From: Polaribacter marinaquae
Lineage (GTDB): Bacteria; Bacteroidota; Bacteroidia; Flavobacteriales; Flavobacteriaceae
NCBI RefSeq assembly: GCF_038019025.1
Contig: NZ_CP150496.1
Coordinates: forward strand, 1,504,001-1,568,000
Reading direction: 5' to 3'
Length of the DNA stretch: 64,000 bases
This document shows, piece after piece, positions 16,838 through 49,520 of the stretch (the first letter of the stretch is position 1; each line of letters begins with the position of its first letter). A program made the position numbers and the translations under genes. The notes beneath the pieces are model-generated. The model made no database searches. It had not been told where the DNA came from and worked only from the letters and a program-made list of their open reading frames with translations.

Positions 16838-17794
16838 TTAAAAAAGTTCAGTAGCAATAGCTTGTACATTATCACTTTTTCCCATAGAATAATAATGTAA
16901 AACAGGCACACCTGCAGCTAACAATTCTTTAGATTGCTGTATTGCCCACTCAATACCAACTTGTCTAACAGCTTTGTTATTACTACAATCTTCTATAGCA
17001 ATAATTAAAGGCTCTGGTAAATCAATTTTAAAAACTTGTGGCAATAACTGTAAGTGACGTTTAACTGCAATGGGTTTAATTCCTGGTATAATAGGCACAT
17101 TTATACCTGCATTTTTGGCCGCTGCAACAAATTCAAAATATTTCTGATTATCAAAAAACATTTGAGTTACAACATAATCTGCCCCAGCATCAACCTTTTC
17201 TTTTAATCGTTTTAAATCGGTTTGTAAAGATGGTGATTCTAAATGTTTCTCTGGATATCCTGCAACACCAATACAAAAGTCAGATTTATTAGACGCCTCT
17301 ACAACCTCGTGTAAATATTTTCCGCAGTTTAAATCCTGAATTTGAGAAACCAAATCTTTTGCATAATGATTTCCGTCTTTGTTTGGTTCAAAATACTTTT
17401 GATGGCTCATCGCGTCTCCTCTTAACGCCATAACATTATCAATCCCAAGATAATGGCAATCTACCAAAACATACTCTGTTTCCTCTTTACTAAAGCCACC
17501 ACAAAGCACATGTGGCACAGTATCTACATCATATTTATGTTTAATTGCAGCACAAATACCAACTGTACCTGGCCGCATTCTAGTAATTTTTCTATCTAAC
17601 AAACCGTTACCTTTATCTATATAAACGTATTCTTCTCTAGAAGTTGTTACGTCTATAAACGGAGGTTTAAACTCCATTAAAGGATCTATGTTGTTGTATA
17701 ATTCTTGAATATTATTTCCTTTTTTTGGCGGAATAATTTCAAATGAAAATAATGTTTTTCCGTTGGCTTCTTTAATATGATCTGTAATCTTCAT
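16838..17794 (-). CDS. metF: 5,10-methylenetetrahydrofolate reductase
   Basis: 318 residues. FAD enzyme that reduces methylene-THF to 5-methyl-THF, the methyl donor for MetH. Typical features: FSFEIIPPKKG near the N-terminus with the catalytic Glu, FIDVTTSREE, MALRGDAM, and the C-terminal substrate region GADYVVTQMFFDNQKYFEF followed by VPIIPGIKPI. It follows the two MetH genes on the same strand, 283 nt away, with a dispersed repeat and a possible small ORF between them. Confidence 0.95.
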   Translation of the reverse strand: MKITDHIKEANGKTLFSFEIIPPKKGNNIQELYNNIDPLMEFKPPFIDVTTSREEYVYIDKGNGLLDRKITRMRPGTVGICAAIKHKYDVDTVPHVLCGGFSKEETEYVLVDCHYLGIDNVMALRGDAMSHQKYFEPNKDGNHYAKDLVSQIQDLNCGKYLHEVVEASNKSDFCIGVAGYPEKHLESPSLQTDLKRLKEKVDAGADYVVTQMFFDNQKYFEFVAAAKNAGINVPIIPGIKPIAVKRHLQLLPQVFKIDLPEPLIIAIEDCSNNKAVRQVGIEWAIQQSKELLAAGVPVLHYYSMGKSDNVQAIATELF

Positions 17795-17991: not shown

Positions 17992-18075
17992 TGGGCGTTC
18001 CCTTTCAGGTCGCGCTTTTCGTTATATCTTTTTCTCGTTCCTTAAAAAAGGATGTCACTACAATCGCTAACGCAG
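17992..18075 (-). repeat. Dispersed structured repeat, copy 1
   Basis: Read on the minus strand it begins GCGTTAGCGATTG, immediately after the metH stop, and ends GAAAGGGAACGCC. Outer arms GCGTT/AACGC pair; the adjoining GCG/CGC pair replaces GGG/CCC of copy 2; an inner hairpin is ATCCTTTTTT / AAAAAGAT. Copies 2 and 3 are at 49438-49520 and 59283-59360. Confidence 0.8.
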
Positions 18076-18077
18076 GC

Positions 18078-20753
18078 TTACTCTTCTGCTAAATTTGGAT
18101 GCAACCATTTTCTAGCTTTTTGTTTCGAAATTCCTTTACGTTGTGCATAATCTGTAACTTGATCGTCTGTTATTTTACCCAAACCAAAATATTTAGCTTC
18201 TTTATTTGCAAAATAATAACCAGAAACAGCAGCTGCAGGCCACATTGCCAAACTTTCTGTAAGTTTAACATCTATTTGTTCTTCTACGTTAAGTAAGCTC
18301 CAAATTGTTTCTTTTTCTAAATGATCTGGACAAGCAGGGTAACCTGGCGCCGGACGAATACCTTTGTAATTTTCTTTAATTAAATCATCATTAGACAATT
18401 CTTCATCAAGAGCATACCCCCAATGTTTTGTTCTAATTTGTTTGTGCAAATATTCTGCAAAAGCCTCGGCAAAACGATCTGCAATTGCTTGCGCCATAAT
18501 TGCATTATAATCATCTTCTTTAGCTTTATAACTTTCTGCCAATTCTTGTGCCCCAAAAATTCCGACACAAAAAGCACCCATAAAATCTTTTTTACCAGAT
18601 TCTTTAGGTGCAATAAAATCTGCTAAAGCATGGTTTGGTATACCTTCTCTTTTCTTTAACTGCTGTCTTAAAGTTCTAAAAACAAATTCTTCTCCTCCTT
18701 TTTTATGTACAGAAATATCATCTTCGTTAATAGTATTTGCTTCGAACAAACCAAAGATTGCTTTTGGTTTTAAAGATTGATTTGCTATAATTTCATTAAT
18801 CATAACATTTGCTTCTTTGTACATTATTGTTGCTTGCTCGCCTACAACCTCATCTGTTAAAATATCAGGAAATTTACCATGTAAATCCCAACTTCTAAAA
18901 AACGGACTCCAATCTATAAAAGGCACTAATTCTTTTAAACTTAACTGTTCTAAAGTCTGAATTCCTAATTCTTTTGGCTTTACAATTTCAGTAGTTTGCC
19001 AATCAATTTTGTATTTACGTGTACGAGCTTCTTTTATAGAAATGTATGATTTCTCTTTACCTCGTTTTAAAAACTTGGTTCTAAACTCATCATAATCTTT
19101 CTTTAATTTTGCTACATAATCGTTATTGGTTTTTTTATTCAGCAAATCTCCAACAACAGTTACTGCTCTAGAAGCATCATTTACATGAACCACAGCGTTT
19201 TTATATTGTGTATCTATCTTAACTGCTGTATGTGCTTTAGATGTTGTTGCACCACCAATCAATAACGGTAATTTAAAATTTTGACGCTCCATTTCTTTGG
19301 CTAAATACACCATTTCGTCTAAGGACGGAGTAATCAATCCGCTTAAACCAATTGCATCTACATTTTCTCTTTTTGCAGCTTCAATAATTTTTTCTGGCGG
19401 AACCATAACTCCTAAATCTACAATCTCGTAATTATTACAGCCTAAAACAACAGAAACAATATTTTTACCAATATCATGAACATCTCCTTTTACTGTTGCC
19501 ATTAATATTTTACCTAATGCTTTTTGTTCTTCGCCTTTTTCTGCTTCTATAAAAGGATTTAGATAACCGACCGCTTTTTTCATAACTCGAGCAGATTTTA
19601 CAACTTGTGGTAAAAACATTTTTCCTGCACCAAATAAATCTCCAACTACATTCATACCAATCATCAAATTTCCTTCGATAACCTCTATTGGTTTTTCTGC
19701 TTGTTGTCTTGCTTCTTCTACATCTTCAATAATAAATGCGTCAATTCCTTTAACTAAAGCGTGCGTAATTCTATCTTGTAAAGGGTTTTCTCTCCAAGAT
19801 AAATCGATAGTTTTTTCTTTTTTGGTTCCTTTTACCGTTTCTGCAAAATCTAATAAACGTTCGGTAGCATCTTCTCTTCTATCTAAAATTACGTCTTCTA
19901 TATGTTCTAATAAATCTTTCGGAATATCATCATACACTTCTAACATTGCTGGGTTAACAATACCCATATTCATACCTGCTTGTATCGCATAATACAAGAA
20001 AACAGAGTGCATTGCTTCTCTAACAGTATTATTTCCTCTAAAAGAAAACGACACATTACTTACTCCTCCACTTACAGAAACGTTTTCTAAATTCTGACGC
20101 ACCCAACGCGTTGCTTCTATAAAATCAATAGCATTTTTTCGATGTTCATCCATACCTGTTGCCACAGGAAAAATATTTAAATCGAAAATTATATCTTCGG
20201 ATGCAAAACCAACTTTGTTTACTAAAATATCATAAGAGCGTTTGGCTATTTCTATACGTCTTTCGTAATTGTCTGCTTGTCCAACTTCATCAAAAGCCAT
20301 TACAATTACTGCGGCTCCGTACCTTTTTATTTGAGTTGCTTCCCAAATGAATTTTTCTTCTCCTTCTTTTAATGAAATGGAATTTACAACGCATTTTCCT
20401 TGTACAACTTGTAAACCAGCTTCAATAATTTCCCATTTAGAACTATCTATCATCATAGGAACTCTACAAATATCTGGTTCTGCAGCTATTAAATTCAAAA
20501 AACGAACCATGGCTTCTTTTCCATCTATCAAACCATCATCCATATTAATATCTACAATCTGCGCACCACCGTCTACTTGATGTCTTGCAATATCTAAAGC
20601 TTCATCAAATTTCTCTTCTTTAATAAGTCTTAAAAACTTGCGTGACCCTGCAACGTTGGTTCGTTCTCCTACATTTATAAAATTGCTGTTTTCATTTAGA
20701 ATTAAAGGTTCTAAACCAGACAATTTCATATATTTTGTTTGTTTTATCTTCAT
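18078..20753 (-). CDS. metH: Methionine synthase, cobalamin-dependent, C-terminal polypeptide
   Basis: 891 residues. Carries three of the four MetH modules: the methyl-THF (pterin) binding barrel starting [16 protein letters not shown] near residue 25; the cobalamin cap and binding domain with DVHDIGKN, where H426 is the lower axial Co ligand; and the C-terminal AdoMet reactivation domain with [12 protein letters not shown] near residue 795. The homocysteine domain is encoded separately at 20767-21756, 13 nt upstream. The two reading frames differ, but both ends fall at a domain boundary and both are intact, as is common in Bacteroidota. Enzyme activity depends on vitamin B12. Confidence 0.93.
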
Positions 20754-20766
20754 TAGGCTACCTTTA

Positions 20767-21756
20767 TTAAAGTTTACGTGGCTTATATTTTGAAGCTAAA
20801 TTTGATATTACTTTTATGTGTTCTGGCGATGTACCACAACAGCCACCAATAATATTTATCAAATCTTTTTTTAAATACTCTTCTATTTGTTCTCCCATTT
20901 CTTCAGGAGATTCATCATACTCTCCAAAAGCATTTGGTAAACCTGCATTTGGATGTGCAGATATTGCAAAGTCGGTTTTATTTGCTATTGCCTCTAAATG
21001 TGGTTGCAATAAATTGGCACCTAAAGCACAATTAAACCCTACAGATAACAACGGAATGTGAGACACAGAAATTAAAAAAGCTTCTGCAGTTTGCCCAGAT
21101 AAAGTTCTACCTGATGCATCTGTTATTGTACCACTTAACATAGTTGGAACTTCTATATTTCGAGCAGTTTTTACTTCTTCTATAGCAAATAAGGCTGCTT
21201 TTGCATTTAATGTATCAAAAACGGTTTCTACTAATAAAATATCTGCGCCACCATCTAACAAGGCTTCTACTTGTTGTTTGTAAGCAATTCTTAATTGATC
21301 GAAAGTTACTGCTCTAAAACCAGGGTCGTTAACATCTGGAGACATACTTGCAGTTCTATTTGTTGGCCCTATAGAACCTGCAACAAAACGAGGTTTATGT
21401 GGTTCTTTTGCTGTAAATTGATTTGCAACTTCTTTCGCAATTTTTGCAGATTGATAATTTAGCTCGTACACTAAATCTTCCATTTGATAATCTGCCATTG
21501 CAATTGTAGTACCAGAAAAAGTATTGGTTTCTATAATATCTGCACCAGCTTCAAAATATTTTGCGTGAATAGTTTTTATAGCTTCTGGCTGTGTAATAGA
21601 CAATAGATCGTTATTACCCTGAAGCGGACTAGGATAGTCTTTAAAACGTTCTCCTCTAAAATCTTCTTCTGTAAATTTATAAGCTTGTAGCATTGTGCCC
21701 ATTGCACCATCTAAAACTAAAATTCGTTCTTGTAAAGCTTTGTATATCTCTGACAT
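20767..21756 (-). CDS. metH: Methionine synthase, homocysteine-binding polypeptide
   Basis: 329 residues. Betaine-homocysteine methyltransferase-type barrel: starts [19 protein letters not shown], with the three zinc-binding cysteines in GFNCALG (near residue 240) and [10 protein letters not shown] (C306, C307). It binds and activates homocysteine as a thiolate for methyl transfer from cobalamin on the partner polypeptide. First gene of a metH operon preceded by a SAM-I riboswitch. The ATG is preceded by a small hairpin TTGATA-AAAA-TATCAA and an A run rather than a strong Shine-Dalgarno. Confidence 0.93.
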
Positions 21757-21808
21757 TTTTTGATATTTTTATCAATATATGTCATCAGGAAAGGTAAAAT
21801 TCTTTGCT

Positions 21809-21916
21809 GTTATCTGTCAAGTTTAGAAAAAACTTGTAGAATGTAGCACCTTTCTCATAAAAATGAGAGGTTGCCAAGGCTTCATCGGGTCTAATCCCTC
21901 TACCTTTCGTGATAAC
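21809..21916 (-). promoter_or_regulatory. SAM-I (S-box) riboswitch upstream of metH
   Basis: On the minus strand: P1 GTTATC/GATAAC closes the element; inside are the conserved core AGAGGGATTAGACCCGATGA, GCCTTGGCAACCTCTC and AAGGTGCTACATTCTAC. These match the SAM-I consensus (kink-turn CGATGA, GGCAACC, GGTGCTA). It lies 53 nt upstream of the metH start. Expected action: SAM binding lowers expression. No obvious T-run terminator follows, so translational or transcriptional mode is undecided. Confidence 0.95.
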
Positions 21917-21941
21917 GTAATTAATAAGTTTATGAACTGAA

Positions 21942-35104: not shown

Positions 35105-38100
35105 TCAATTATTATGTTTTGCCAATCTTAAAATATCACCAAAAACGCCTCTTGCAGTAACGCTTGCTCCGGCTCCGGCACCTTGTATTACAATTGGTTG
35201 CTCGCCATATGATTCTGTATAAATTTCAAAAATAGCATCAGAACCTTTTAGAGATCCTAAGGGAGTAGATTTTTCTGTAGAAACTAACTTTACTTCTAAA
35301 TTACCTTTTGATTTTGATAAATCTCCGCTTAATTCGCCAATATATCTTAAAACATGATTTGGTTTTTGATTTTCTTTTAAAGTCTGATATTCGGTATTTA
35401 ATAATTCTAAATTTTCTAAAAAGCTTTCTGCTGAACCTTCTCTTAAATTCTCTGGAATTAAATTTTTGATAACAACTTCATCAAATTCATTTTCTAATTC
35501 TAATTCTCTTGCAAGTATCAATAATTTTCTAGCAACATCATTACCGCCTAAATCTTCTCTAGCATCTGGCTCTGTAAATCCTTTATCAATTGCTTCTTTT
35601 AAAACTTCAGAAAAAGGAACATTTTTATTAGAAAAATTATTAAATAAATAACTTAAACTTCCAGAAAAAACACCTCTAATTCTAGTTATATTTTCTCCGG
35701 ATTCATGTAATAATCTAATTGTATCTATCAAAGGTAAACCTGCACCAACATTGGTTTCGTATAAATATTGTTTTTTATATTCTTTTAATTTAGCTCTTAT
35801 TTCTTTGTAAAAATCAAAAGATAAAGTATTTGCAATTTTATTACAAGAAACTAAATCGAAACCAGCTTCTATTAAAGGTAAATAATTCGCTACAAAATTT
35901 ACACTAGCAGTATTATCTACGGCTATTAAATTTTCGAAATGATGTGCTTTTGCAAAGGCAATAATATCATTAACGTTTACATTTTCTTCACCACTTTCTA
36001 AAAGATTCTCTTTCCAATTTTTAGAAACGCCATCTTTTTTTAACAGTACTTTTTTAGAATTTGCTACAGCAAAAACATTCAATTGTAATTTTCTTCTTTC
36101 TAAAACAGACTGCGTATTTTCTATAATTTGGTCTATTAATGTACCACCAACTAAACCTTTACCAAAAACAGCAATATTAATTTTCTTAACAATACCAAAA
36201 ACTTGCCCATGAATTACATTAACTGCCTTATGTAATTCTGATTTCTTAACAACCAAACTAACATTTTTACCTGTAACTGTATTATTGAACAACAAAGGCA
36301 CAATTTGATTTTTAATTAAAGCATTATAAGGATGATGAAACTCACTTAAATCTTGACCAATTATAGAAATTACAGCAACATCTTTAACAACAGAAATCTG
36401 ATTTACATCTTGTGAATAAAAGTCGTTTTCGAACTCTTTTTCAAGGGCATTTATTGCTTCTTCAGATTCATTTTCTGCTATAATTAATCCAATTCCTCTT
36501 TCTGATGAACCTTGCGAGATAATACTAACACTTATATTTCTATCGCTTAACGCTTTAAAAATTCTTGCATCTACACCAACTTTACCTAGCAAACCTCTAC
36601 CTTCAAAATTTAACAGAGCAACATCATTAATTGTAGAAATCGATTTAATGCCTTTTGATGAAGATGCGGAAGTGATAAGCGTACCTTTATCTTCTTCTTG
36701 AAAAGTATTTAAAATTCTAAGATTGATGTTTTTTTCTATAAGTGGTATAATCGTTTTAGCGTGCAAAATTGTTGCCCCAAAGTTTGCCAATTCATTTGCT
36801 TCAGAAAAAGACAACTGCTCTATCTTTTTAGCATCTGCAACCAAATCTGGGTTTGCCGTAAAAATTCCGCTTACATGTGTATAATTCTGTAACTCTTCTG
36901 CATCTAAATAATTGGCTAATAATGCGGCAGTATAATTGCTACCATTTCTACCCAATGTGGTTGTTTCTCCTTTTTTATTTGCAGCTACAAAGCCACTTAC
37001 AATATTTATTACGTTGTTGTTTTTCTTAAAAAATGCTGTTACATTCTCTTTTGAAACTGCTGTTATTGGTTGGGCGTTTCCAAAATTTTCGTCTGTAATT
37101 ATTAAAGATCTAGCGTCTATTGCATTTGCCGGCACACTAATTTGTTCTAGTAAACTTGCTACTAATTTTACAGACAATAATTCTCCTTGCGCTAAAACTT
37201 CATCTTTAATTTTACTACTGTAATCGCCTAATAAAGAAACCCCTTCAAACAAAGTTTCTAGTTTTGTAAATTCCGATGTAAAATCTACTTTATTTATTGG
37301 CGTTTGCTGATATTTTTTAAACTCTTCGAATTTAGATTTGTACTCTTGTTTAGCTGCAGCAGTATTTAAAATATCTTCTAAATTGTTAGTTGCATTGCCT
37401 CTTGCAGAAACTACAACCGTAATTTTTTTATTCTCTTTGTATTTTTTTGCAATAATACGTATCGCATTTTCTAAGCCTTTTCCGTTGGCTAAAGATTTTC
37501 CTCCAAACTTTAAAACTTTCATCTTCTTTTCTCTGTAATCTTTATTAAAAATAGGTGCAATAATTTTTTCTAATTGATCATATTCTATTAAAAAAGCATC
37601 ATGACCATGCACCGAATTTATTTCGTTATAAGTAACATTGTCTTTTGTTAATGCTAACTTTTTATGTGTTTCTCTGTTTTCTTCCGCAGTAAAAAACAAA
37701 TCAGAATCTACCCCAATAATATGAATGTTGGCTTCTATCTTATCTAAGATTTCTTCAGGTTTTAAACCTCCGTTGGTAACATCAATCGTTTTTAATAATT
37801 GATTCATTAATTTATAAGACGATAATTGATAACGTTCTTGTAACTTTTTGCCATGATGTAACAACCAACTTTCTACATCAAAAATATCTGAATTCGCTTT
37901 TTTTGATCGATGAAAACGCTCTTTAAAACTTTCTGGCGTTCTATAACATAACATTGCATGCATGCGTGCATCATGCACCGGATTGCTAGAATTTACCAAA
38001 AATTGTTCTTGAATTTGGCAATTGGCTATTAACCAATCTGTAGATTTCCAATCTGTTGCTATTGGTAAAAAATGTTTTGTTAATTTTGTATTTAAGACCA

Positions 38101-38506
38101 ACATTTCCCAAGCAATTCCGCCACCTAAAGAACCTCCTATCAAAGCAAATATTCTATCAATTTTTAATAGATTCAATCCTTCTAAAAAAATATTGGCAAC
38201 ATCTCTTGCTATAAAATCTTTATAATTTTCAATTAAAAAACTATCAAAACCATTGCCTGGTATATTAAAAGACAAAATGGTATAAACCTCTGTGTTTATT
38301 GCTTTATCTAAACCTACAATATCTTGCCACCAACCTTCTTTTCCGGCAACATTAGAATTACCTGTTAATGCATGATTGATTAAAACCACAGGAGCCGACC
38401 CTAATTCTTTACCAAAAACTTGATAACTCAAATTTAATTCAGGAATTTTTACACCAGCTTCTGTGGTAAAATTTTTTATTTTGATATGTTTTAGTAATTC
38501 TTTCAA
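35105..38506 (-). CDS. Triple fusion: MetX-like acyltransferase, aspartokinase, homoserine dehydrogenase
   Basis: 1133 residues. Residues 1-~325 are an alpha/beta-hydrolase homoserine O-acetyltransferase: INHALTGN, nucleophile S126 in GGSLGG, Asp269 in VDSDLFF and His302 in HGHDAF. Residues ~329-790 are aspartokinase beginning MKVLKFGGKSL and containing two ACT repeats. Residues ~790-1133 are homoserine dehydrogenase with NAD-binding VFGKGLVGGTL, NVGAGLPLI and GFTEPDAREDLGGNDVARK. The start is TTG at 38506; no ATG precedes the first conserved strand. It lies 11 nt after metY. One polypeptide thus makes aspartyl phosphate, later homoserine, and the O-acetylhomoserine that MetY uses. Confidence 0.92.
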   Translation of the reverse strand: MKELLKHIKIKNFTTEAGVKIPELNLSYQVFGKELGSAPVVLINHALTGNSNVAGKEGWWQDIVGLDKAINTEVYTILSFNIPGNGFDSFLIENYKDFIARDVANIFLEGLNLLKIDRIFALIGGSLGGGIAWEMLVLNTKLTKHFLPIATDWKSTDWLIANCQIQEQFLVNSSNPVHDARMHAMLCYRTPESFKERFHRSKKANSDIFDVESWLLHHGKKLQERYQLSSYKLMNQLLKTIDVTNGGLKPEEILDKIEANIHIIGVDSDLFFTAEENRETHKKLALTKDNVTYNEINSVHGHDAFLIEYDQLEKIIAPIFNKDYREKKMKVLKFGGKSLANGKGLENAIRIIAKKYKENKKITVVVSARGNATNNLEDILNTAAAKQEYKSKFEEFKKYQQTPINKVDFTSEFTKLETLFEGVSLLGDYSSKIKDEVLAQGELLSVKLVASLLEQISVPANAIDARSLIITDENFGNAQPITAVSKENVTAFFKKNNNVINIVSGFVAANKKGETTTLGRNGSNYTAALLANYLDAEELQNYTHVSGIFTANPDLVADAKKIEQLSFSEANELANFGATILHAKTIIPLIEKNINLRILNTFQEEDKGTLITSASSSKGIKSISTINDVALLNFEGRGLLGKVGVDARIFKALSDRNISVSIISQGSSERGIGLIIAENESEEAINALEKEFENDFYSQDVNQISVVKDVAVISIIGQDLSEFHHPYNALIKNQIVPLLFNNTVTGKNVSLVVKKSELHKAVNVIHGQVFGIVKKINIAVFGKGLVGGTLIDQIIENTQSVLERRKLQLNVFAVANSKKVLLKKDGVSKNWKENLLESGEENVNVNDIIAFAKAHHFENLIAVDNTASVNFVANYLPLIEAGFDLVSCNKIANTLSFDFYKEIRAKLKEYKKQYLYETNVGAGLPLIDTIRLLHESGENITRIRGVFSGSLSYLFNNFSNKNVPFSEVLKEAIDKGFTEPDAREDLGGNDVARKLLILARELELENEFDEVVIKNLIPENLREGSAESFLENLELLNTEYQTLKENQKPNHVLRYIGELSGDLSKSKGNLEVKLVSTEKSTPLGSLKGSDAIFEIYTESYGEQPIVIQGAGAGASVTARGVFGDILRLAKHNN

Positions 38507-38517
38507 GTAAAATCGGT

Positions 38518-39792
38518 TTATATTTCTGAAAAAGCTGCCTTTAAATCTGCTTTTAAATCTGCTATATCTTCAATACCAACAGACAAACGAATTAAATCTT
38601 GCGATACACCTGCACTTTCCTGTGCCGTTTCATCTAATTGTTGATGTGTTGTACTAGACGGATGAATAATCAACGATTTTGTATCACCAATATTTGCCAA
38701 CAAAGAGAAAACCTTTGTTTTATCTGCTATTGTTTTTGCCGCTTCAAAACCGCCTTTTGGCCCAAAAGTTACAATACCACTTTGCCCCTTTGGCAAATAT
38801 TTATCAGCTAGATCTTTGTATTTACTGCTTTCTAAACCAGGATAATTTACCCAAGCAACCTCTTCTTGTGCTTCTAACCACTTTGCTAATTCTAAAGCAT
38901 TTTTAGAGTGTTGCTGAATTCTAACCGGCAACGTCTCTAAACCTTGAATAATATTAAATGCGTTTGTAGGACTTAATGCGCCACCAAAATCACGCAGTCC
39001 TTCTAAAATCAATTTAAAAGTATAGGATGCAGCACCTAAAGCCTCGTGATATTTTAAACCATGATACCCAGCAGAAGGTTCTGTAAATTCTGGAAATTTA
39101 CCATTTGCCCAATTAAAAGTTCCTGCATCTACAATTGCGCCTCCTAACGAAGTTCCTTGTCCGCCAATATATTTTGTAAGTGAATGTATTACAATATTTG
39201 CACCATGTTTAATCGGATTCAATAATGCAGGTGTTGCTACCGTGTTATCTACAATAAAAGGAACTTCTGCAGCTTTAGAATGTACAGCAATTGCTTCTAA
39301 ATCTAAAACATCTAACTTCGGATTTCCTAAAGATTCTACAAAAAATGCTCTTGTATTTTCTTGTAAAGCTTCTGCAAAATTATCAGGATTAGAAGCATCT
39401 ACAAAAGTTGTAGTAATACCAAATCTTGGTAACGTAACGCTTAGTAGATTATACGTTCCGCCGTATAAACTGCTCGAAGCTACAATATGATCTCCTGCTT
39501 TTAAAAGCGTTAACAAACCTGTAGAAATTGCTGCCGTACCAGAAGCAAAAACCACAGCTCCAATACCGCCTTCAACTGCGGCTAATCGATCTTGTAAAAT
39601 TTGATTTGTAGGGTTATTTAAACGCGTGTAAATAAAACCTAATTCTTTAAGCGAAAATAAATTTGCTGCGTGTTCTGAATTGTCAAAAACATACGAAGAT
39701 GTTTGATAAATAGGAACTGCTCTTGTTCCTCCGTTTTGTGTTACGTCATGCCCTGCATGTAATGCGTTTGTTGCTAATTTTTGAGTACTCAT
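38518..39792 (-). CDS. metY: O-acetylhomoserine sulfhydrylase
   Basis: 424 residues. PLP enzyme that converts O-acetylhomoserine and sulfide directly to homocysteine. Features: TNALHAGHDVTQNGGTRAVPIYQTSSYVF, the phosphate-binding FASGTAAI, VDNTVATPALLNPIKHGANIVIHSLTKYIGGQG with the PLP lysine, and the longer length (about 425) typical of the OAH sulfhydrylase branch rather than MetB/MetZ (~385). First gene behind a SAM-I riboswitch; the next gene makes its substrate. Confidence 0.93.
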   Translation of the reverse strand: MSTQKLATNALHAGHDVTQNGGTRAVPIYQTSSYVFDNSEHAANLFSLKELGFIYTRLNNPTNQILQDRLAAVEGGIGAVVFASGTAAISTGLLTLLKAGDHIVASSSLYGGTYNLLSVTLPRFGITTTFVDASNPDNFAEALQENTRAFFVESLGNPKLDVLDLEAIAVHSKAAEVPFIVDNTVATPALLNPIKHGANIVIHSLTKYIGGQGTSLGGAIVDAGTFNWANGKFPEFTEPSAGYHGLKYHEALGAASYTFKLILEGLRDFGGALSPTNAFNIIQGLETLPVRIQQHSKNALELAKWLEAQEEVAWVNYPGLESSKYKDLADKYLPKGQSGIVTFGPKGGFEAAKTIADKTKVFSLLANIGDTKSLIIHPSSTTHQQLDETAQESAGVSQDLIRLSVGIEDIADLKADLKAAFSEI

Positions 39793-39861: not shown

Positions 39862-39919
39862 TTACTAGAAAAATGTTATTAAGAAAATAGAAGTTTCCAG
39901 AACAGGAAAATTCTTTTTT

Positions 39920-40026
39920 GTTATCTATCCAAATACAAAGTATTTAGGTAGAATGTAGCACCTTCTTTATTTCTAAAGGGTTGCTAAGGCTTCATCGGGT
40001 CTAATCCCTTCACCTTTCTTGATAAC
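39920..40026 (-). promoter_or_regulatory. SAM-I (S-box) riboswitch upstream of metY
   Basis: Minus strand: P1 GTTATC/GATAAC, core AGACCCGATGA with GCCTTAGCAACCC, and AAGGTGCTACATTCTACC. Close in sequence to the metH copy at 21809-21916. The gap to the metY ATG is 127 nt, longer than for metH. Controls metY, the triple fusion and metZ by layout. Confidence 0.95.
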
Positions 40027-40056
40027 ATTTCAATAAGTTATTGAACTTTGTGAGTA

Positions 40057-40251: not shown

Positions 40252-40259
40252 TACTTTTG
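40252..40259 (+). promoter_or_regulatory. Putative -7 element of metK
   Basis: TACTTTTG (TAnnTTTG) ends 12 nt before the SAM-II-like aptamer, so transcription would start at about 40264, right at the edge of the aptamer. Confidence 0.55.
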
Positions 40260-40271
40260 CAGTCGAATTAA

Positions 40272-40322
40272 GAGGAAAAATTTGAACTGATTGCAACCTC
40301 AATAAAAAAATGCTAAAGCAGT
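40272..40322 (+). promoter_or_regulatory. SAM-II-type riboswitch aptamer upstream of metK
   Basis: P1 GAGG/CCTC (40272-40275 with 40297-40300), loop ATTTGAACTGATTGCAA, then GCTAAAG and CAGT. ACTG (40286-40289) pairs with CAGT (40319-40322) to close the pseudoknot. The loop and GCTAAA follow the SAM-II core as I remember it from the Sargasso metX crystal sequence (ATTTAACCGTATTGCAA ... GCTAAAAAGG). It lies in front of metK, a SAM-synthesising enzyme. Not checked by covariance search. Confidence 0.75.
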
Positions 40323-40391
40323 AATTATCTACTTCTTTTAGCGACTATGCAATCAATTTTAATTTCCTACAACATTTAAAAGAAGAATATT

Positions 40392-41648
40392 ATGTCATAT
40401 TTATTTACCTCAGAAAGTGTTTCTGAAGGACATCCTGATAAAGTAGCAGATCAAATTTCTGATGCTTTAATAGATAATTTTTTAGCCTTTGATAAAACAA
40501 GTAAAGTAGCTTGCGAAACATTAGTTACAACTGGGCAAGTTGTATTGGCTGGAGAAGTAAAATCTAAAACTTATTTAGATGTACAGCAAATTGCAAGAGA
40601 TGTAATTAATAAAATTGGTTATACAAAAGGAGAATATATGTTCGACGGAAATTCTTGCGGTGTTTTATCTGCAATTCACGAACAATCGCCAGATATTAAC
40701 CAAGGTGTTGATAGAGCAAAACCAGAAGAACAAGGTGCTGGAGACCAAGGAATGATGTTTGGTTATGCTACAGATGAGACAGAAAACTACATGCCTTTGG
40801 CTTTAGAATTGTCTCACAGGCTTTTAATTGAATTAGCAGCTTTAAGAAGAGAAAACAAAGACATTACTTACTTAAGACCAGATGCTAAATCTCAAGTAAC
40901 TATAGAGTATTCTGATGATAATGTTCCGCAAAGAATTGATGCGATTGTAATTTCTACTCAACATGACGATTTTGACAAGTCTGATGATGTTATGTTAGCA
41001 AAAATTAAAAAAGATATCGTTGAAATTTTAATTCCTAGAGTTGTAGCAAAATTACCTGCTCATATTCAAAAATTATTTACAGATAATATTACGTATCACA
41101 TCAACCCAACAGGCGTTTTTGTTATTGGTGGACCTCATGGAGATACAGGTTTAACTGGTAGAAAAATTATTGTTGATACTTACGGTGGTAAAGGTGCACA
41201 CGGTGGTGGTGCTTTCTCTGGAAAAGACCCTTCTAAAGTAGACAGATCTGGAGCTTATGCAACTAGACATATTGCAAAAAATTTAGTTGCTGCCGGTTTA
41301 TGTAAAGAAGTTTTAGTACAAGTTTCTTATGCAATTGGTGTTGCAAAACCTACAAGTATTAACGTAGAAACCTATGGTACAGCAACTGTTGGTTTATCCG
41401 ACGGAGAAATCAGTAAAAAAGTAGAAGAAATTTTTGACATGCGTCCTTATTTTATAGAACAACGCTTAAAATTAAGAACGCCAATTTACTCTGAAACTGC
41501 TGCATATGGCCACATGGGTAGAACTCCAGAAATTAAAACAGTAACTTTTTCTAATCCAATGGGAGAAACTGTTTCAGAAGAAGTAGAAACTTTTACTTGG
41601 GAAAAGTTAGATTATGTAGACAAAGTAAAAGCGGCATTTAATCTATAA
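40392..41648 (+). CDS. metK: S-adenosylmethionine synthetase
   Basis: 418 residues. Makes SAM from methionine and ATP. Motifs: [20 protein letters not shown] with catalytic His/Asp at the N-terminus, [43 protein letters not shown] with [21 protein letters not shown], and a C-terminal GLSDGEI region. An AGAAGAA stretch precedes the ATG. Transcribed away from the metY operon. Followed by a strong terminator, so monocistronic. Confidence 0.97.
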
Positions 41649-49419: not shown

Positions 49420-49437
49420 AATTTAAAAATCTTGGGA

Positions 49438-49520
49438 TTGCGTTAGGGATTGAAATGGCATCCTTTTTTGAGGAACGAAAAAAAGATATAATGTAAAGCC
49501 CGACCTTGTGTAACGCCAAA
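49438..49520 (+). repeat. Dispersed structured repeat, copy 2
   Basis: Plus orientation, starting GCGTTAGGGATTG and ending TAACGCC. Outer stem GCGTTA/TAACGC, adjoining GGG/CCC, inner hairpin ATCCTTTTTT / AAAAAAAGAT. About 75 percent identical to copy 1 by eye. It ends 5 nt before the stop of the convergent carbonic anhydrase gene. Confidence 0.85.

Follow-up and report, generated by a model that had tools for sequence, protein, structure and literature searches.

A SAM-II riboswitch ahead of metK in Polaribacter marinaquae, and a predicted long hairpin that competes for both strands of its aptamer

The stretch of DNA analysed here (64,000 nucleotides from Polaribacter marinaquae, hereafter the window) carries metK, encoding methionine adenosyltransferase (SAM synthetase), at 40392..41648 on the + strand (TIGR01034, 516.3 bits, cut-off 309.4). 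The four best named relatives of the protein are all from Polaribacter, at 95, 92, 90 and 85% identity. A scan of the whole window with all Rfam families gave six matches in all, among them a SAM-II aptamer at 40266..40326 (+), for which RF01726 scored 69.6 bits (cut-off 44, E 2.2e-11) over model positions 1–60 of 60. This is the single RF01726 match in the genome, and metK is the gene directly after it, so that a methionine/SAM gene lies downstream. SAM-V is absent from the six matches, and the alphaproteobacterial SAM-II model RF00521 has no match in the genome, the control genomes being equally silent. An earlier note, made from the letters alone, had proposed a SAM-II-type aptamer at this place, and at the level of the covariance model the metK leader element is confirmed as a SAM-II riboswitch (RF01726). 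All the sequence features named in that note were found where it had placed them when the letters were read directly.

The aptamer stem P1 is formed by GAGG (40272–40275) and CCTC (40297–40300), and the H-type pseudoknot P2 by ACTG (40286–40289) with CAGT (40319–40322), both as read from the letters; another leader (L131) has AGGG/CCCT in place of GAGG/CCTC. Between the end of the pseudoknot strand and the metK ATG lie 69 nt. Upstream, TACTTTTG at 40252..40259 (+) matches TAnnTTTG, which I take to be the Bacteroidota-type -7 promoter motif. Among 193 leaders TAnnTTTG occurs within 70 nt before GAGG in 188, and in 171 it ends 10–16 nt ahead of it. The position of the element makes a transcript start just before the aptamer likely, in agreement with the earlier placement of a -7 element at the aptamer edge.

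The same aptamer was sought in related genomes, with RF01726 matches counted at an E-value of at most 0.001. It was found in 283 of 299 sampled genomes of the family (275 above the curated cut-off), in 51 of 58 genomes of the genus (43 above the cut-off), and in 38 of 247 across the phylum; these 38 comprise 27 from the window's own family, 3 from another family of the order and 8 more distant. A SAM-II example in a flavobacterium had been expected to be informative; in this family it is the rule. The aptamer is in fact already known, and is ordinary for Flavobacteriaceae: a table in Weinberg et al. (2010; PMC2864571), in the portion of that paper available, lists "SAM-II long loops" as RF01726, from Bacteroidetes and marine samples, and the accessible text of Corbino et al. 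(2005; PMC1273637) mentions a few SAM-II cases within the Bacteroides group. Extra copies in some small genomes precede a metY-like gene (MGNQKISTKALHVGHD...) in one case (L027), and other ORFs in three more (L005, L106 and L107).

On the opposite strand a divergent transcript carries a SAM-I riboswitch at 39918..40028 (-; RF00162, 79.5 bits, cut-off 44.4), 237 nt from the SAM-II aptamer. Behind it lies a metY-like gene for O-acetylhomoserine aminocarboxypropyltransferase (38518..39792, -; TIGR01326, 608.1 bits, cut-off 495.1), followed by an ORF of 1133 aa (35105–38506, -). The TIGR family search places a MetX-like region at its residues 10–318 (TIGR01392, 182.6 bits, under the cut-off of 500) and a bifunctional aspartate kinase/homoserine dehydrogenase I at residues 329–1131, over the cut-off. 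Of the 58 genomes of the genus, 54 have SAM-I and 51 have SAM-II, and all 51 have both. In 37 of these 51 genomes the coordinates, counted by eye, put the two on opposite strands and no more than a few hundred bases apart; some of the genomes are fragmented. Barrick and Breaker (2007; PMC2258182), in the text available, found no species with both SAM-I and SAM-II, and the 51 genomes with both classes go past that survey as far as the available text describes it.

For a comparison of what lies between aptamer and gene, 196 leaders (193 distinct, three duplicates having been merged) could be parsed from aptamer to metK among 260 loci. The 64 loci left out are those where the search pattern did not find an aptamer plus metK; some are metK loci that have no SAM-II, some are SAM-II copies upstream of genes other than metK, and some are genuine leaders overlooked by the pattern, such as L083, L085 and L087 from the genus, and L131, L205 and L240. 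Of 17 loci that are more distant or odd, 9 were not located by the pattern. The leaders fall into 50 from the genus, 18 selected by a switch-strand motif (hereafter the motif-selected group), and 125 others. The motif-selected set at first held 19 leaders; one of them (L168), which lacks the sequestor described below, was moved by hand to the others, a move that favours the reading given here. Folds were computed without the pseudoknot and without ligand energy, and the permutation and shuffle statistics ignore kinship among leaders.

In the window, the linker between aptamer and metK is complementary to both strands of the aptamer. The aptamer 3' strand GCTAAAGCAGTA (40312..40323, +) is captured, in the predicted fold, by an inner anti-aptamer arm TACTTCTTTTAGC (40330..40342, +), GCTAAAG..AGTA pairing with TACT..CTTTTAGC. 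An outer arm (40348..40368, +) faces the aptamer 5' strand (40273–40295): its first part, TGCAATCA (40348–40355), is exactly complementary to TGATTGCA (40288–40295), and the arm is predicted to extend further than had been described, 40363–40368 also pairing with AGGAAA (40273–40278). The fold of the window's leader (40262–40420) is not by itself significant when the whole leader is shuffled (z -1.34, 19 of 200 shuffles equally stable); when the linker only is shuffled, z is -2.7. The corresponding linker-only means are -2.0 in the genus, -2.7 in the other leaders and -4.1 in the motif-selected group.

The pairing itself recurs among relatives. The mean paired fraction of the aptamer 3' strand with the linker is 0.91 in the genus, against 0.27 in shuffles. 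Both aptamer strands are engaged by the linker in the SAM-free folds of 45 of 50 genus leaders (15 of 250 with shuffled linkers) and of 104 of 125 other leaders (37 of 625), a shuffle rate of about 6% in these two groups. In the motif-selected group this holds for only 4 of 18 leaders, against 3 of 90 shuffled, perhaps because the switch strand is there drawn to the start region. In 49 of 50 genus leaders and 127 of the 143 remaining ones the linker is more complementary to the aptamer 5' strand than its shuffled versions are; the edge is smaller against linkers swapped in from other leaders (31 of 50 and 97 of 143). Folds inspected by eye show the linker likewise placed onto the aptamer in two leaders from another family of the order (L272 and L274), and an antisense arm accompanies the SAM-II copy of L027. 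These comparisons support two mutually exclusive predicted folds, aptamer and long hairpin. The earlier note had made two claims, the aptamer and the hairpin that excludes it; the second is the informative one, and it is supported by the modelled folds of most Flavobacteriaceae leaders examined, the motif-selected group being the exception.

The outer arm reads as an antisense version of the aptamer 5' strand, though a degenerate one, and covaries with it in part. In the window, TGCAATCAATTTTAATTTCCT (40348–40368) stands opposite AGGAAAAATTTGAACTGATTGCA (40273–40295). The register of the match differs among leaders: many in the genus match at TGATTGC, with GCAATC downstream, and GATTTGAC, with GTCAAATC downstream, is where the match is best in many other genera. 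Where the aptamer is of the AAGGA class, its own linker binds that variant best in 28 of 32 cases; for the AAAGA class the figure is 19 of 46, with 11 ties, and the AAAAA class shows hardly any preference (4 of 74, with 4 ties), which may be because G pairs add strength. Among 85 leaders, two of three variable positions covary between aptamer and arm beyond permutation (p 2e-4 each, kinship ignored), and the third does not (p 0.65). In some genera with the GTCAAATC arm (leaders L148, L150, L163 and L178) a small hairpin, for example GACG-N4/5-CGTC, is possible in the SAM-bound view and overlaps bases of the antisense arm; leaders with GTCAAAT have a mean linker-alone z of -1.0 (n=36).

A switch also needs an output, and the one considered here is access to the metK start. 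The cost of opening the region from -15 to +12 around the start codon was computed once with the aptamer available for pairing, to represent the SAM-free state, and once with it excluded from pairing, to represent the SAM-bound state. For the window it is predicted to rise from 2.1 kcal/mol SAM-free to 5.9 SAM-bound. The mean change is +1.48 in the genus (control -0.25; 46 of 50 leaders exceed their own control), +5.41 in the motif-selected group (control -0.89; 17 of 18) and +1.25 in the other leaders (control +0.11; 89 of 125). SAM-bound genus leaders hardly differ from controls in this cost (4.94 against 4.90), so the shift there arises from the SAM-free state. A first run had covered -20 to +12, and the stretch was shortened after that result was known, because the longer one overlaps the outer arm in short linkers. 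The first run gave mean changes of +1.52 in the genus (control +0.35), -1.06 in the motif-selected group (control -2.47) and +0.48 in the others (control +0.19), and for the window 4.25 rising to 6.09. The description of the element as a "complete two-state switch" came without an output, and the output proposed here, access to the metK start, is a computed one.

What the linker might pair with in the SAM-bound state differs between groups. In the window, TAAAAGAAG (40377..40385, +), before the ATG, is the exact complement of CTTCTTTTA (40332–40340). As a conserved sequestor of the genus this pair was rejected. Of the 50 leaders, 26 have a linker-to-start pairing better than the shuffle mean and 19 one better than the swap mean; in the 24 leaders with the invariant GAAG, the facing linker base is T in 8, C in 11 and A in 5. 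It is retained solely as a possible SAM-bound contact, as judged from the letters and the fold. The window's fold from start to linker is by itself unremarkable (z -0.41, 58 of 200 shuffles equally good), and folding the linker alone gives a z close to zero, both in the genus (-0.5) and in the other leaders (-0.4).

The motif-selected leaders come from genomes with listed sizes of 1.3 to 2.2 Mb, several of them incomplete. In this group the linker by itself is predicted to fold with far greater stability than its shuffles (z -3.8), and TAAAGCAA, located a few bases ahead of the ATG, is the pairing partner of a switch strand such as TTGCTTTA. Covariation was assessed in 16 leaders in which GCTTT near the beginning of the linker is followed further on by AAAGC, and in which only the flanking positions are informative: at the first, T-A, A-T, G-C and C-G are all seen and 13 of 16 leaders are paired (p 3e-4), with p 0.033 at the second and p 0.70 at the third. 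A dedicated start-site sequestor is, on this sequence comparison, clear only in these small-genome relatives. Three-strand translational riboswitches, of the anti-sequestor/sequestor kind, have aptamer, switch and start-site strands that compete, and in the modelled folds of the motif-selected group this logic is complete.

The most satisfactory reading, short of a demonstration, is that SAM turns translation off. The opening cost of the start rises in the SAM-bound state, and there is no terminator-like site between 39780 and 40450; for these reasons the riboswitch probably switches metK translation off when SAM is plentiful, a proposal I favour with some confidence. When SAM is scarce, the linker would fold back on the aptamer, the inner arm taking the 3' strand and the outer arm the 5' strand, as the comparison of leaders suggests; with the linker tied up, the metK start would be open. 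With SAM bound, the pseudoknot would retain both aptamer strands and release the pyrimidine-rich linker, which could then pair with the A-rich start region (CTTCTTTTA with TAAAAGAAG in the window) and lower initiation. Such a scheme would suit ribosomes that hardly use Shine-Dalgarno (SD) sequences, yet are sensitive to structure at the start codon.

SAM-II riboswitches are usually explained by an SD sequence hidden in the pseudoknot or by a terminator. The former is the SAM-II model given in the available part of a review (PMC10907184), and would here mean direct occlusion of the ribosome by the pseudoknot, the downstream complementarity having no regulatory role. It fits the metK leader poorly, and I consider it very unlikely: the pseudoknot strand ends well ahead of the ATG, pairing of linker with aptamer far exceeds shuffles, and Flavobacterium johnsoniae does without SD usage (PMC6847099, as far as its accessible text goes). 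Baez et al. (2019; PMC6847099), in that same text, describe members of the phylum as without SD sequences, and report for F. johnsoniae that structure of the start region tunes translation. Since SAM-II is near-universal in a family that hardly uses SD sequences, it must act otherwise here. Attenuation by an intrinsic terminator that forms when SAM is bound, the mechanism put forward for many SAM-II leaders of alphaproteobacteria, has precedents in the putative terminators that follow many SAM-II aptamers (PMC1273637, available text) and in the one predicted for Sinorhizobium meliloti metZ (PMC9373788, likewise). I find it scarcely credible at this locus, where no terminator-like site is called and where the SAM-bound leader views hold such sites in 0 of 50 genus, 0 of 18 motif-selected and 4 of 125 other leaders (1, 0 and 1 when shuffled).

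A U-rich tract after the long hairpin might suggest the reverse, a terminator that forms without SAM, so that SAM would turn metK on. Over 41 leaders of the genus, T does account for 7.7 of the 12 nt that follow GCAATC, the linker mean being 4.8, but in other genera the count after CAAATC is 4.4 against 4.1 (55 leaders). Because the tract reads as the antisense of AAAAATTT in the aptamer of this clade, and because it is absent from other genera, a SAM-free terminator was set aside; no terminator is called in the window, activation by SAM is metabolically implausible for a SAM synthetase, and this reversal is highly improbable. Less easily dismissed, though still unlikely, is a version in which the same two folds compete and the output is either Rho-dependent termination or decay of the RNA, for which the freed linker, pyrimidine-rich and poor in G, would provide the site of loading or cleavage. 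The linkers contain 18% C and 10% G over the 193 leaders (15% and 8% in the genus), there is no intrinsic terminator, and outside the motif-selected group a dedicated sequestor is unsupported. The excess of C over G, however, is to be expected of a linker that complements the purine-rich strands of the aptamer, and both the shift in start-region accessibility and the sequestor that covaries in the motif-selected group point to translation.

Among the closest described elements is "SAM-II long loops", with which the aptamer shares sequence, structure, phylum and a match over the whole model length (PMC2864571); no expression platform was found in the text available, and one may be described in the supplement. 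The leaders of S. meliloti metA and metZ share the SAM-II aptamer, and metA is thought to repress translation upon SAM binding; its SD sequence, GAGG, is hidden within the riboswitch, and metZ has a predicted terminator (PMC9373788, in the part available). The metK leader here has neither, and differs from both by the long antisense arm that re-pairs the aptamer. The metX SAM-II from the Sargasso Sea likewise binds SAM with a pseudoknot aptamer, but its ribosome site, according to the excerpted review (PMC10907184), is inside the pseudoknot, which in the metK leader ends 69 nt before the start.

Three-strand riboswitches resemble the metK leader in the competition of aptamer, switch and start-site strands. 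Unlike in these, the switch arm here is complementary to a large part of the aptamer 5' strand in addition to the 3' strand, and the start-site strand is not a usual SD. An expression platform built on an antisense arm was not found described in the open-access literature as far as its available texts go, supplementary files aside. The wider proposal, on which I am evenly divided, is that SAM-II in Flavobacteriaceae has a different output, in which an encoded antisense copy of the aptamer would make the ON state by leaving the start region unobstructed, and SAM would free that copy to silence initiation. The cell would at the same time divide its sensing of SAM between two unrelated aptamers set back to back, with methionine synthesis under SAM-I and SAM synthetase under SAM-II. 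The conserved antisense arm would be a testable answer to how SAM-II acts without an SD sequence, and the natural variants, with two registers and one group that has a clear start-site sequestor, are suited to the design of compensatory mutants.

Further regulatory RNAs were matched in the window by the Rfam scan. A second SAM-I riboswitch lies at 21807–21918 (-), and is followed on the same strand by ORFs at 20767–21756 (329 aa) and 18078–20753 (891 aa), read by eye as a split methionine synthase, and then by an ORF at 16838–17794, named metF-like by eye from its translation. Flavo-1 RNAs (RF01705) lie at 18004–18082 (-), at the 3' end of the 891-aa ORF, and at 49437–49509 (+). A Flavo-1 RNA is also present about 70–450 nt downstream of metK in three Flavobacterium records (L197, L202 and L209).
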